Assembly (NCBI GenBank): GCA_002733605.1
Contig: NVWK01000011.1
Coordinates: 186,001-250,000, forward strand
Direction: 5' to 3'
DNA from: Robiginitomaculum sp.
GTDB lineage: Bacteria > Pseudomonadota > Alphaproteobacteria > Caulobacterales > Maricaulaceae
DNA length: 64,000 nucleotides
Part shown: positions 50,318 through 55,647 of the stretch, piece after piece
How the letters are laid out: each line of letters starts with the position of its first letter
How positions within the stretch are numbered: position 1 is the first letter of the stretch
Translations under genes and position numbers: made by a program
The notes under the pieces: model-generated
Databases searched by the model: none
Told to the model about the DNA's origin: nothing
Seen by the model: the letters and a program-made list of their open reading frames with translations, nothing else

Positions 50318-50341
50318 ATCTGCTCTTCGGCAGATTTTATT
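50318..50341 (+). terminator. Possible terminator of the amidase operon
   Basis: ATCTGC and GCAGAT form a 6-bp stem with loop TCTTCG, followed by TTTTATT on the + strand. It lies about 150 bases after the aldehyde dehydrogenase stop, just before the end of the convergent TetR gene. Confidence 0.5.
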
Positions 50342-50936
50342 CAAAAGTCTGATTGGTAAATCCGTTTAGAAAAGTTTCACAAATCATAGCAGAAAATTTT
50401 TCGATAGAGAGGTTGCCATCTTCTTCAAACCAAGTGTGTGTCCAGTTCAACATGCCAATAAACATCATAGTGACTGGGAATTGCAATTTTTCCTCTAATT
50501 TGGGGTTTAACTCTACTAACGTATCAAAAATAGCTTCTACGGGTTGGCGTAAACTGGCAGCAATTTGATCTCTTTGTGCTTGAGGTAGGGCGTCTAGCTC
50601 ACCCAAAATTAATTTGTGTTGTGCTCGAAACTTCACGTTAATGCGTAAAAAATGACGTGCGTATTTTTCAAGTCGTTCTTTTGCATCTAATGTGGGCTCT
50701 TTAATTATAGGTAAAAACGTATTCACAAGAGTTTGAGCGTGTTCGTTGAGAATTTCATACAAGACTTGCTCTTTTGAAGGAAAGTAGTGATAGAGGCGAG
50801 ATTTTGACGTGTTACAAGCCTTGGCAATATCGGTGATAGACGTCGCATGGAAGCTTTGTTGAGCGAATAATTGTGTGGCGACCTGCAATATATGCTCTCG
50901 TTTTTTTTTGTAGTCGTTCGCTTGTGGTCTCGCCAT
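50337..50936 (-). CDS. TetR family regulator, PaaR-like
   Basis: This 199-residue TetR repressor has the HTH ITDIAKACNTSKSRLYHYFPSKEQVL (about residues 34-59), and the C-terminal domain resembles TetR proteins that control phenylacetate genes. It points toward the island and lies 0.4 kb from paaZ. A TetR-like operator (ACCGAACGGACGGT) is found in the divergent paaG-paaJ promoter region rather than in front of this gene, so it may regulate in trans. Role in phenylacetyl-CoA sensing is inferred from neighbours. Confidence 0.75.
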   Translation of the reverse strand: MARPQANDYKKKREHILQVATQLFAQQSFHATSITDIAKACNTSKSRLYHYFPSKEQVLYEILNEHAQTLVNTFLPIIKEPTLDAKERLEKYARHFLRINVKFRAQHKLILGELDALPQAQRDQIAASLRQPVEAIFDTLVELNPKLEEKLQFPVTMMFIGMLNWTHTWFEEDGNLSIEKFSAMICETFLNGFTNQTFE

Positions 50937-51313
50937 AATCCATCCTTATTTATATCTGATTAGCCGATTCTTGATCGCAACAAAAGTGATAAACATACCC
51001 ATATCTACACTTTAGTTTTTTAATATTGTTGTTTTACCGAAGTTAGATTGGGATTTCTGTTGCTGTAAAGCAATTTGAGAAGAGGCGCTCGCAACACTTT
51101 TGTGTGCGAGGACTGTCTTCATGAGAAGGCTCTCAAATTGATCTACAGATTCTGCTCGGCCTATACGTGTGTAATCATGTGCGTCAAACTTTCCGGTAAG
51201 ACGGAGGGCTTTCATACGCCTGTACGGGAGAGGGTTTTAGTCGGCTTAACTGTAGAGCCTGTAGGGCGGGTATCGATAGTTTTTCAGCGTCGTCTAATAA
51301 TGGGATATAGTCT
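50937..51313. other. Spacer between the PaaR-like gene and paaZ, with a possible gene remnant
   Basis: No confident gene is visible. A 67-codon open frame on the - strand (51012-51215) reads protein-like (MKALRLTGKFDAHD...) but has no recognisable family, has an in-frame stop just upstream and lacks a good ribosome binding site, so it may be a decayed end of a lost gene. The paaZ 3' end is at the right edge. Confidence 0.35.
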
Positions 51314-53359
51314 TTAAGCATCTCTATTTTCGATCGCGTTCATCGTCAAGAGATCGTATGTAGCAACGAGTTCATCATTTTGATTAAGCAATTCAACATC
51401 CCACTTAACTTCGCCGTATTCATCATTGCGTTTCTTTTTGGTTTTTGCTGTGAGTTGCACTCTGATTGAATCGCCCGGAGATACAGGTGTGAGAAAACGG
51501 AGATTTTCTAGCCCCGTGTTGGCCAGTACGGGGCCAGGAGCGGCATCCACAAAAAGGCCCGCAGCGAAAGAAATAAGCAGATAACCATGGGCAACGCGTC
51601 CAGGAAAGAAAGGGTTAGCTTTTGCAGCTTCTTCGTCCATATGGGCGTAGAAATTATCTCCCGTAAATTCTGCGAAATGTTCGATGTCTTCCAGTGTAAT
51701 TATCCGACCTTTCGTCAAAAGCGTTTTGCCAATTTCTAGATCATCGAAGTTAAACCGGAACGGATGGGCACCATCTGTGGTTCGCAGCGCGCCTTTCATC
51801 CAGACTTTTGTTGCGCCTGTAATGAGCTCAGGGGTTCCTTGAATAGCGGTACGTTGCATATAATGTTTGATCCCCCGAGCGCCGCCCATTTCTTCACCAC
51901 CACCCGCACGACCAGGGCCACCATGAACGAGTACGGGGAGGGGAGAGCCGTGGCCCGTGCTTTCTTTGGCATTGTCACGATTGATCATGGCAATGCGGCC
52001 ATGGAAACAGGCAGACCCTAAAACGATCTCGCGGGCTACATTGGGGTCATAGGTAAAAATGGACATAACCAGAGAGCCAAGACCTTCGTTACATAGACGT
52101 ATGGCATCTGCCATGTTCTGATAGGGCATCAGAGTTGAAACAGGGCCAAAGGCTTCTACCGAATGGATGCTCGGCGCTTCCCAAGGTGTGTCGCAACGTA
52201 GTAATATTGGAGATAAGAAAGCACCATCATTGTCATTGGCTTCAACTACATCAACTTTATCAGGGTTACCAAAAACAATCTTCGCCTCTTTTGAAAGTTG
52301 TTTAACTTTGTTGCGTACATCTGTGCGTTGCGACTGACTGACCAGTGCGCCCATGCGGACGCCTTCTGCATCAGGTTTGCCGACTTTGATGGTTTCTAGC
52401 CGCGCTATAAGTGCGGATTGAGCTTCGTCCATTAGGGCTTCGGGAACGAATGCGCGGCGAATGGCTGTACATTTTTGTCCCGCCTTAACAGTCATTTCAT
52501 TGACGACCTCTTTAATAAAAAGTGTGAATTCTGGAGAGTCGGCTGTAGCGTCTGGGCCAAGAACCGAAGCGTTGAGGCTGTCTTGTTCTGCGACAAACCG
52601 TACACTGTTTTTGATGATATTTGGATGGGTACGTAATTTGGTGGCTGTAGAAGCCGAGCCTGTAAAGGACACAACATCCTGACAGCCCAGATGATCGAAT
52701 AAATCACCAGTACGACCGACAATGAGTTGGAGCGCGCCTTCAGGCAGAACACCAGACTCGATCATAATGCGTACAGCGTGTTCGCATAGATATGAAGTGG
52801 AAGTGGCTGGTTTCACAATTGAGGGCATGCCCCCAATGAGAGAAGACCCCAGCTTTTCGAGCATCCCCCAAACTGGGAAATTGTAGGCGCCGATGTGAAG
52901 GGCCAGACCTTGCATTGATGTATAGATATGTTGCCCCATCCAAGTGCCGTTTCTGGAAATCTGTTCTGGCGGGCCATCTATAATTACATAATCATCGGGG
53001 AGTTCACGGCGGGCTTTTGACGAGGTCGAGAAAAGGGTCATACTTCCCCCTTCAATGTCAACCCAACCATCACGGCGCGTGGCACCTGTATGTGCGTTGA
53101 GCGCATATAACTCGTCTTTACGCTCATTAAGCGCCAAGCCAAGGGCTTTGACCATATAGGCACGTTCGTGGATTGTCATAGCGCGTAGAGCAGGACCACC
53201 TACATCACGAGCATAGTCCGCCATGGCTTTGAAGTCAGTCCCACTAGAGCTGGTTTGGGCTACAGTTTTGCCTGTGACAGCAGAGGGAATGTCCACTAGG
53301 TCAGATTGGCCTTTAGCCCATTTTCCTGAGACATAGTTTTCGAGAATAATAGCAGACAT
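51314..53359 (-). CDS. paaZ: Bifunctional PaaZ: oxepin-CoA hydrolase / 3-oxo-5,6-dehydrosuberyl-CoA semialdehyde dehydrogenase
   Basis: PaaZ (681 residues) opens the oxepin-CoA ring of phenylacetate degradation and oxidises the aldehyde formed. The N-terminal about 520 residues are aldehyde dehydrogenase-like (VAEQDSLN with Glu, GQKCTAIRR with the Cys nucleophile, EAFGPVSTLMPY), and the C-terminal about 150 are a MaoC-like hydratase domain (FAEFTGDNFYAHMDEEAAK). It is on the - strand downstream of paaG with 40 bases between, so the two are probably co-transcribed. Confidence 0.93.
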   Translation of the reverse strand: MSAIILENYVSGKWAKGQSDLVDIPSAVTGKTVAQTSSSGTDFKAMADYARDVGGPALRAMTIHERAYMVKALGLALNERKDELYALNAHTGATRRDGWVDIEGGSMTLFSTSSKARRELPDDYVIIDGPPEQISRNGTWMGQHIYTSMQGLALHIGAYNFPVWGMLEKLGSSLIGGMPSIVKPATSTSYLCEHAVRIMIESGVLPEGALQLIVGRTGDLFDHLGCQDVVSFTGSASTATKLRTHPNIIKNSVRFVAEQDSLNASVLGPDATADSPEFTLFIKEVVNEMTVKAGQKCTAIRRAFVPEALMDEAQSALIARLETIKVGKPDAEGVRMGALVSQSQRTDVRNKVKQLSKEAKIVFGNPDKVDVVEANDNDGAFLSPILLRCDTPWEAPSIHSVEAFGPVSTLMPYQNMADAIRLCNEGLGSLVMSIFTYDPNVAREIVLGSACFHGRIAMINRDNAKESTGHGSPLPVLVHGGPGRAGGGEEMGGARGIKHYMQRTAIQGTPELITGATKVWMKGALRTTDGAHPFRFNFDDLEIGKTLLTKGRIITLEDIEHFAEFTGDNFYAHMDEEAAKANPFFPGRVAHGYLLISFAAGLFVDAAPGPVLANTGLENLRFLTPVSPGDSIRVQLTAKTKKKRNDEYGEVKWDVELLNQNDELVATYDLLTMNAIENRDA

Positions 53360-54250: not shown

Positions 54251-54264
54251 ACCGAACGGACGGT
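54251..54264. promoter_or_regulatory. TetR-type (PaaR-like) operator in the divergent paaG / paaI-paaJ region
   Basis: ACCGAACGGACGGT is a near palindrome of the ACCGnnCGnnCGGT type. On the - strand it lies just after TTGACC and before TATTATATT, so it would block a paaG promoter; it is also 20 bases before the + strand paaI start. Confidence 0.6.
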
Positions 54265-54283: not shown

Positions 54284-54445
54284 ATGGGAAACCAAGACGA
54301 TCAAGCACAGGCGATCGCGCGTCATATGTTATCTCAAGAAGAGGTGGCTTGTGTGTGGGGACATATTTATGAAGGTCGGGTCGTGGCTATTTTTCAAGGG
54401 CTATCACGAACACTCCGTGGCCGTATTCTCGAAGAGGAAATCTAA
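54284..54445 (+). pseudogene. paaI remnant: phenylacetyl-CoA thioesterase with large internal deletion
   Basis: This 53-codon frame starts at ATG 54284 and its TAA overlaps the ATG of the thiolase (TAATG). Residues about 1-26 (DDQAQAIARHMLSQEE) resemble the N-terminus of hotdog thioesterase PaaI and residues about 28-53 (YEGRVVAIFQGLSRTLRGRI) resemble its C-terminus, where family members read DGRxxALFRGKSxRIxG. The middle about 80 residues, including the catalytic HGG region, are missing, so it is an in-frame deletion. It may still act as a leader for thiolase translation. A thioesterase activity is not expected. Confidence 0.6.
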
Positions 54446-55647
54446 TGTCTGTTGCTTATATTTGTGATGCGATCCGTACACCCATTGGTGCATTTGGGGG
54501 GACGTTGTCAACAATTCGTACGGATGATTTAGCCGCTATCCCGCTTAGGGCTTTGAAGGCGCGTAATCCAAAAATTGATTGGGATGCAGTGGATGACTTA
54601 ATAATGGGCTGTGCCAATCAAGCCGGTGAAGATAATCGCAATGTCGCCCGAATGGCAGCATTATTGGCTGACCTCGGGGATAAAGTGCCTGGCACGACTG
54701 TGAACCGTTTGTGTGGTTCTGGCATGGATACGATTATGATGGCTGCCCGTGCAATCATGGCTGGAGATGCGGATATGATAATTGCTGGGGGCGTAGAGAG
54801 TATGACGCGCGCACCATTTGTGATTCCCAAAGCCACTGGCGCATTTTCCAGAAATGCAGAAATTTATGACACGTCGATTGGGTGGCGTTTTACGAACCCG
54901 AAGCTCGAAGCGGAGTTTGGTGCCGACCCCATGCCTAAAACAGCTGAGACTGTGGCCGAAGAGTTTAATATTAGTCGGGAAGACCAGGACTTGTTTGCAA
55001 AATGCAGTCAAGAGAAAGCGGAAGCCGCTATTAAATCTGGCCGTCTTGCGAAGGAAATAATCCCCGTTATTATCCCGCGCCGAAAGCAAGACGATCTTGT
55101 TTTTGATACTGATGAACATCCCCGCAATAGCCCATTGGAGATTCTTGCCAAGTTACGACCCATCGTGAAGCCGGGAGGCACTATTACGGCCGGTAATGCA
55201 TCAGGCGTTAATGACGGTGCAGCAGCTGTGATTGTTGCATCCGAAGCGGCTGTGAAACGGCACGGATTGACCCCGCGTGCACGATTTGTTGCGGGCGCAG
55301 TTGTTGGTGTACCACCTCGTATAATGGGGATCGGACCCGGGCCAGCTTCGCAACGGGTACTTGCTAAAGCCGGTTATGATGTTCGAGATATGGATGTTAT
55401 CGAAATTAATGAAGCGTTTTCTTCACAATCATTGGCAACTCTGCGCATGTTAGGGTTGGGCGATAACGAGCCTCATGTTAACCCGAATGGCGGTGCCATT
55501 GCTCTTGGACATCCTCTTGGCATGTCGGGTACGCGGATCGTCATGAGTGCCATTGAAGAACTTCATCAAGCCAACGGACAGAAAGCACTCGCGGCAATGT
55601 GTATTGGTGTTGGACAAGGAATCGCTTCAATTTACGAGCGCGTTTAG
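54445..55647 (+). CDS. paaJ: 3-oxoadipyl-CoA / 3-oxo-5,6-dehydrosuberyl-CoA thiolase (PaaJ/PcaF type)
   Basis: This 400-residue thiolase cleaves the beta-ketoacyl-CoA end products of phenylacetate (and of beta-ketoadipate) breakdown. The acylated Cys is in NRLCGSGMDTI (about residue 90), the basic His in NPNGGAIALGHPLGMSG and the second Cys in AAMCIGVGQG. Homology is to the PaaJ/PcaF group; the phenylacetate neighbours favour PaaJ. It is divergent from paaG and translationally coupled to the paaI remnant. Confidence 0.87.
   Translation: MSVAYICDAIRTPIGAFGGTLSTIRTDDLAAIPLRALKARNPKIDWDAVDDLIMGCANQAGEDNRNVARMAALLADLGDKVPGTTVNRLCGSGMDTIMMAARAIMAGDADMIIAGGVESMTRAPFVIPKATGAFSRNAEIYDTSIGWRFTNPKLEAEFGADPMPKTAETVAEEFNISREDQDLFAKCSQEKAEAAIKSGRLAKEIIPVIIPRRKQDDLVFDTDEHPRNSPLEILAKLRPIVKPGGTITAGNASGVNDGAAAVIVASEAAVKRHGLTPRARFVAGAVVGVPPRIMGIGPGPASQRVLAKAGYDVRDMDVIEINEAFSSQSLATLRMLGLGDNEPHVNPNGGAIALGHPLGMSGTRIVMSAIEELHQANGQKALAAMCIGVGQGIASIYERV

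Follow-up and report, generated by a model that had tools for sequence, protein, structure and literature searches.

What is the 53-codon open reading frame (ORF) that ends on the start codon of a thiolase gene in Robiginitomaculum sp., and why is it still open? The initial annotation of the window, that is, the whole stretch of 64,000 nt that was analyzed, had read it as paaI reduced by a recent in-frame deletion of about 80 residues, with PaaI signatures at both ends and the residual frame surviving perhaps for translational coupling to the thiolase. We found that it is very probably a pseudogene of paaI in a remodelled paa cluster, with paaK decayed beside it, in what looks like ordinary pathway trimming. 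The relic and the gene that follows it comprise these features:

54284..54445, + strand: paaI relic, 53 codons plus TAA (two-block alignment to intact orthologues)
54284..54373, + strand: N-terminal piece, PaaI residues 1-30 (tblastn, two-block alignment)
54374..54442, + strand: C-terminal piece, PaaI residues 122-144, GRVVAIFQGLSRT... (tblastn, profile, alignment)
54434..54437, + strand: GAGG, probable thiolase Shine-Dalgarno within the 3′ end of the relic (hybridisation energy, sequence position)
54445..55647, + strand: 3-oxoadipyl-CoA thiolase of the PaaJ/PcaF type (NF006551, 652.8 bits, cut-off 605; TIGR02430, 634.4 bits, cut-off 597)

The ORF started with ATG, and the last base of its TAA was the A of the thiolase ATG (54445), such that frame, start and the TAATG overlap were all in place as annotated. 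Neither Pfam nor NCBIfam returned a family for it at E ≤ 10, and its likeness to solved structures came down to three chance matches against a single unrelated protein (E 0.78-0.9), so that its identity rests on relatives. In tblastn searches of the window locus with PaaI from L017, residues 1-30 were matched at 50% (E 0.025) and residues 121-143 at 65% (E 3.7e-4). The best collinear two-block alignment to PaaI from L018 broke at residue 30, the second block being offset by 91, and scored 147, against a mean of 40.7 (sd 4.9) and a maximum of 60 for 1,000 shuffled versions of the relic, which bears out the proposed similarity to PaaI at both ends. Relic codons 1-30 corresponded to residues 1-30 and codons 31-53 to residues 122-144, leaving 91 codons absent, rather than the 80 or so first supposed. 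MAFFT placed HIYE, the four residues that precede the joint, to the right of the gap instead; the spacing of WG..YE favours assigning them to the left piece. PaaI ancestry was evident from the collinear similarity together with the operon position, and the alignment to intact orthologues supports reading 54284..54445 as a paaI from which 91 codons (273 nt) were removed internally and in frame, as the annotation had it.

The block that was removed, residues 31-121, contains DMLNGH, HGG and LADTA, the last of which is the catalytic-aspartate motif by alignment. In T. thermophilus PaaI the catalytic residue is Asp48, located within the conserved motif (PMC2698920). Having lost the NGH, HGG and LADTA motifs, the relic product cannot be a thioesterase, and hydrolysis of phenylacetyl-CoA would not be expected of a protein without the active site. 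Compared with the known PaaI hot-dog thioesterase (TIGR02286; E. coli PDB 1PSU and 2FS2; T. thermophilus 1J1Y), to whose solved chains the intact L017 protein matched, the relic represents the two ends and stands before the thiolase just as in 29 intact relatives, but it is without the 91 central residues and their catalytic-aspartate motif, matches no Pfam or NCBIfam family and has no score over the curated TIGR02286 cut-off.

With the thiolase as query, we gathered loci from the best 80 of 504 relatives, from 59 family genomes (13 with a thiolase match at 1e-100) and from 398 order genomes (61 with a match at 1e-150). After removal of nine duplicate rows these yielded 140 distinct thiolase loci, the window locus included, 135 of which had at least 500 nt of upstream sequence. 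A PaaI-like match (E ≤ 1e-3) was present within 1,000 nt upstream of the thiolase at 39 of the 140 loci: 29 were intact (match at E ≤ 1e-30 with an open frame of 390-520 nt), six were distant homologues (34-38% identity), one was truncated where its contig stops (L115), and three were broken, namely those of the window, L021 and L035. Such a match was absent upstream at the remaining 101, among them L019, with a thiolase identity of 80%. The nearest intact paaI among the loci examined were those of L005/L017 (one and the same sequence) and of L018, whose thiolases share 82% and 81% identity with that of the window; the encoded PaaI proteins were 144 and 148 aa long, respectively, and scored above the TIGR02286 cut-off of 118.9 bits (129.2 for L017 and 126.8 for L018). 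Both of the two loci with the most similar thiolases had an intact paaI upstream. Full-length paaI before the same thiolase was thus present at 29 of 140 loci, and intact genes at this place speak for reading the relic as a pseudogene. A short form conserved in many species had been named as the contrary case; no other locus of the 140 had the same joint. The other two broken genes also preceded the same thiolase, that of L021 (3573-3994) being frameshifted and ending about 206 nt ahead of it, and that of L035 (2997-3249) having an internal deletion and being out of frame near its start. The L035 joint adjoins in-phase AREG repeats of L027 but fits them inexactly. Separately, L006 (635-1508) held two intact paaI copies in tandem ahead of the thiolase.

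A second full PaaI elsewhere, the other contrary case raised, was likewise not found in the assembled genome (one draft assembly of 14 contigs, 90.81% complete). There, the orthologue profile recovered no full-length PaaI, only one partial match (1.2e-6) and the C-terminal piece of the relic (E 7e-4), missing the N-terminal piece. Searches with TIGR02286 gave three distant hot-dog proteins at 34.3, 31.2 and 30.8 bits, against the cut-off of 118.9, and these were rejected as PaaI. Two of them were above the cut-off of TIGR00369 (general hot-dog thioesterase), one having MenI as its best named subfamily, under that model's cut-off, and the third was matched by no NCBIfam model at 1e-8. These two generic hot-dog thioesterases might take over the work of PaaI. 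Contig C1 of the same assembly likewise has a distant hot-dog protein behind a thiolase gene (L003, 1300-1806).

Bacterial pseudogenes can arise by deletion between short direct repeats, and in the closest intact genes such a repeat was likewise present where the relic has its breakpoints; what differs here is that the repeat is in codon phase and the frame remains open. In L018 paaI, CGAAGATGG occurred at either breakpoint, its two copies being spaced by 270 nt and in phase with each other; it was the longest direct repeat in the gene, ranking first of 20 repeats of at least 6 bases that were at least 60 nt apart. The same place in L005 paaI held GAAGACG, ranked third of 22 repeats. A repeat of at least 7 bases was present at the breakpoints in nine of 29 orthologues, in phase in seven of these nine, and because it was present in only these nine, we infer, rather than observe, that the deletion in this lineage occurred by repeat mispairing; the actual loss, 273 nt, exceeds the L018 repeat spacing by one codon. 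Given a breakpoint repeat in codon phase, the in-frame outcome needs no selection.

The course of events would then be as follows. The phenylacetyl-CoA thioesterase gene paaI, first before the thiolase in relatives, would have lost its centre when two short direct repeats, codon-phased and encoding the similar turns YEDGG and GEDGR, mispaired. Ribosomes probably still read the relic, ending at TAATG as they would on full-length paaI, and the peptide need not function. The frame may still be open because the event is fairly young and because of where the relic sits: bigger deletions between the thiolase start and the probable promoter region would cost thiolase expression. The locus is a clear case of an operon gene gutted with its neighbour untouched: because the joined stretches are codon-phased, the deletion spared the frame, along with the intergenic region upstream and the ribosome site of the next gene.

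The retained pieces bear on the age of the deletion. Synonymous sites were saturated (pS 0.79 and 0.87), precluding a dN/dS value, with pN below pS. Over the retained codons pN was 0.323 between the relic and L017, 0.298 between the relic and L018 and 0.117 between L017 and L018, the thiolase values for the same three pairs being 0.120, 0.132 and 0.082. The excess lay in the N-terminal piece, where the relic shared 15 and 16 of 30 residues with the two intact relatives, which shared 26 of 30 with each other; this faster divergence speaks for a pseudogene. In the C-terminal piece, it shared 15 and 14 of 23, the intact pair sharing 16 of 23, so that no faster drift was apparent, which speaks against one. 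Eleven C-terminal columns showed conservation of about 90% or higher across the 29 orthologues; the relic kept ten of them and had R at the 11th, as do L005 and L018. Residues unseen in other orthologues numbered four of 25 in the N-terminal piece and three of 23 in the C-terminal piece; since two of the 29 intact genes equalled or exceeded these figures for each piece, they do not prove decay. Taken together, the relic fits a fairly young pseudogene, and the data leave room for weak selection on its 3′ part. The claim that the deletion was recent has moderate support from the open frame and the conserved C-terminal columns; the N-terminal piece has drifted.

Further paa genes and a regulator gene were present on the opposite strand, across a divergent intergenic region:

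54251..54264, + strand: near-palindrome ACCGAACGGACGGT between paaG and the relic, shared in most of its bases by L017 and L018
53400..54194, − strand: paaG (TIGR02280, 385.1 bits, cut-off 345.15)
51314..53359, − strand: paaZ (TIGR02278, 992.4 bits, cut-off 562.8)
51184..51321, − strand: paaK remnant, a 45-codon ORF between paaZ and the TetR gene, PaaK residues 5-44 followed by a stop
50337..50936, − strand: TetR-family regulator adjoining the paaK remnant (family-library match)

The 45-codon ORF was 57.5% identical to PaaK (E 3.7e-7 in the window), with an alignment score of 102 against a shuffle maximum of 42 (n = 30). No remainder of the gene was recognized, and the assembled genome contained no PaaK match at E ≤ 0.001. 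The gene order in G005 is paaK, paaZ, paaG / paaI, paaJ; paaK likewise lies beyond paaZ in L018, and in L162 it is followed by a TetR gene whose product is 33% identical to the TetR of the window. What is new here, judging from these alignments, is that paaK, the ligase gene opposed by PaaI, is also a remnant in the same cluster, and this is the more telling result. Epoxidase genes were found elsewhere in the genome, comprising PaaA as well as PaaC and PaaD over their cut-offs, with PaaE slightly under its own (403.9 vs 420.8). The pathway thus retains PaaA, C, D and E, PaaG, PaaZ and the thiolase, whereas the ligase forming phenylacetyl-CoA and the thioesterase undoing this step are both gone, which suggests a different entry into the phenylacetate pathway. 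Loss of paaI along with the decay of paaK would leave the phenylacetyl-CoA pool without the ligase/thioesterase pair by which it is controlled.

The pseudogene reading has to be weighed against other accounts of the ORF. Selection could have retained it as a leader, with ribosomes that end at TAATG restarting on the thiolase and the open frame averting polarity. The TAATG overlap and open frame fit this, as do the undiminished C-terminal piece, the fact that 23 of 468 single substitutions (~5%) would make a stop and none has occurred, and the tight spacing in relatives, the paaI stop being placed at −12 to +8 relative to the start of the thiolase at 24 of 29 intact loci. Yet that spacing predates the deletion, being the same with full-length paaI, and L102, L111 and L116 do with paaI-thiolase gaps of 141-163 nt. 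Moreover, the thiolase has a Shine-Dalgarno of its own that is quite ordinary (−5.9 kcal/mol, in a range of −4.3 to −9.6 across 26 loci compared, the window and two broken loci included), L021 keeps its thiolase behind a frameshifted paaI, and a third of deletions would be in frame by chance on a simple expectation, a share that the in-phase repeat raises. We regard a selected leader as unlikely: translational coupling, proposed in the annotation, is not supported as a special reason for the survival of the relic, although it may operate here and in relatives alike. The own ATG, the open frame and the retention of the conserved FQGLSR motif could instead speak for a functional small protein, an idea that we consider extremely improbable: the hot-dog protein is without its active site and is short of 91 of its residues (about 144 in all), the Shine-Dalgarno at the relic start is weak (−2.4 kcal/mol) and the same short form was present at no other locus of the 140. 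An assembly or sequencing artefact hiding a full-length paaI could be imagined in a draft of 14 contigs at 90.81% completeness, but the joint is single, clean and in frame, the kept N-terminal codons have drifted and paaK of the same pathway is degraded nearby too, leaving an artefact with a slim chance.

A tentative but more plausible account links the two losses, that of paaI being a consequence of that of paaK. PaaI reverses the PaaK reaction according to a review (PMC9493321), and once free phenylacetate could no longer be re-activated by the ligase, its release by a thioesterase would be wasteful, phenylacetyl-CoA coming from another source, for example, an indolepyruvate-type ferredoxin oxidoreductase. 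Both genes are broken in one cluster here. Across the genus, where the PaaI profile matched five of 14 genomes, the seven PaaA-bearing genomes in the order sample included four with both PaaK and PaaI and three with neither (the Robiginitomaculum sp. of the window, G047 and G343; Fisher p 0.029), although these genomes are not independent and the PaaK match of G011, which is among the four, is interrupted by a stop. An order-wide dependence of PaaI on PaaK was not significant: the 73 PaaA genomes among 398 divided into 23 with both, five with PaaK only, 29 with PaaI only and 16 with neither (p 0.12), G074, of which L021 is a contig, being counted as having PaaI despite its frameshift. Among the 50 genomes with a completeness of at least 90%, p was 0.056, and neither family f4 nor family f5 showed any association on its own (p 1.0 for each). 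Because species are not independent, the association is only a lead. Further, L020 has an intact paaI with TetR after paaZ and no paaK between, and some other ligase might stand in for PaaK. This genome (L166) encodes an indolepyruvate ferredoxin oxidoreductase of the long form (open frame of 1152 aa), and one lay about 3.5 kb from paaA in PaaK-less G074 (L167, 14956-18000, − strand); overall, it was found in three of six PaaK-less genomes tested (G000, G074 and G210) and in one of five with PaaK (G057). Set against this, about 29 kb separate it from paaA in the present genome, and it was not found in G047 or G343, the two others with neither PaaK nor PaaI. That this enzyme feeds the pathway with phenylacetyl-CoA is a hypothesis. 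A doubtful extension would combine both ideas, such that the PaaK/PaaI valve on the phenylacetyl-CoA pool was dismantled since phenylacetyl-CoA arrives ready-made (e.g., from phenylpyruvate via the ferredoxin oxidoreductase) and the paaI frame was then re-used as a leader setting thiolase translation.

Trimming of the paa cluster, the reading that we prefer, has parallels in the remodelled paa clusters of marine Alphaproteobacteria (PMC13186573), with which it has the loss and fragmentation of paa genes in common. In the accessible portion of that paper, pseudogenes figure only as a check in annotating cluster genes and no paaI or paaK remnant is described, and no title or abstract opening returned by the literature searches described a paaI relic of this kind.

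Lastly, the near-palindrome ACCGAACGGACGGT is possibly a candidate regulator site. We liken it, purely by analogy, to a TetR-type operator. A pattern derived from it had two matches in the window, both at that site, which is not above chance (mean of 1.04 in shuffles, 27 of 100 with at least two). At the same place upstream of paaI, 12 of its 14 bases were shared by L017 and 13 of 14 by L018.
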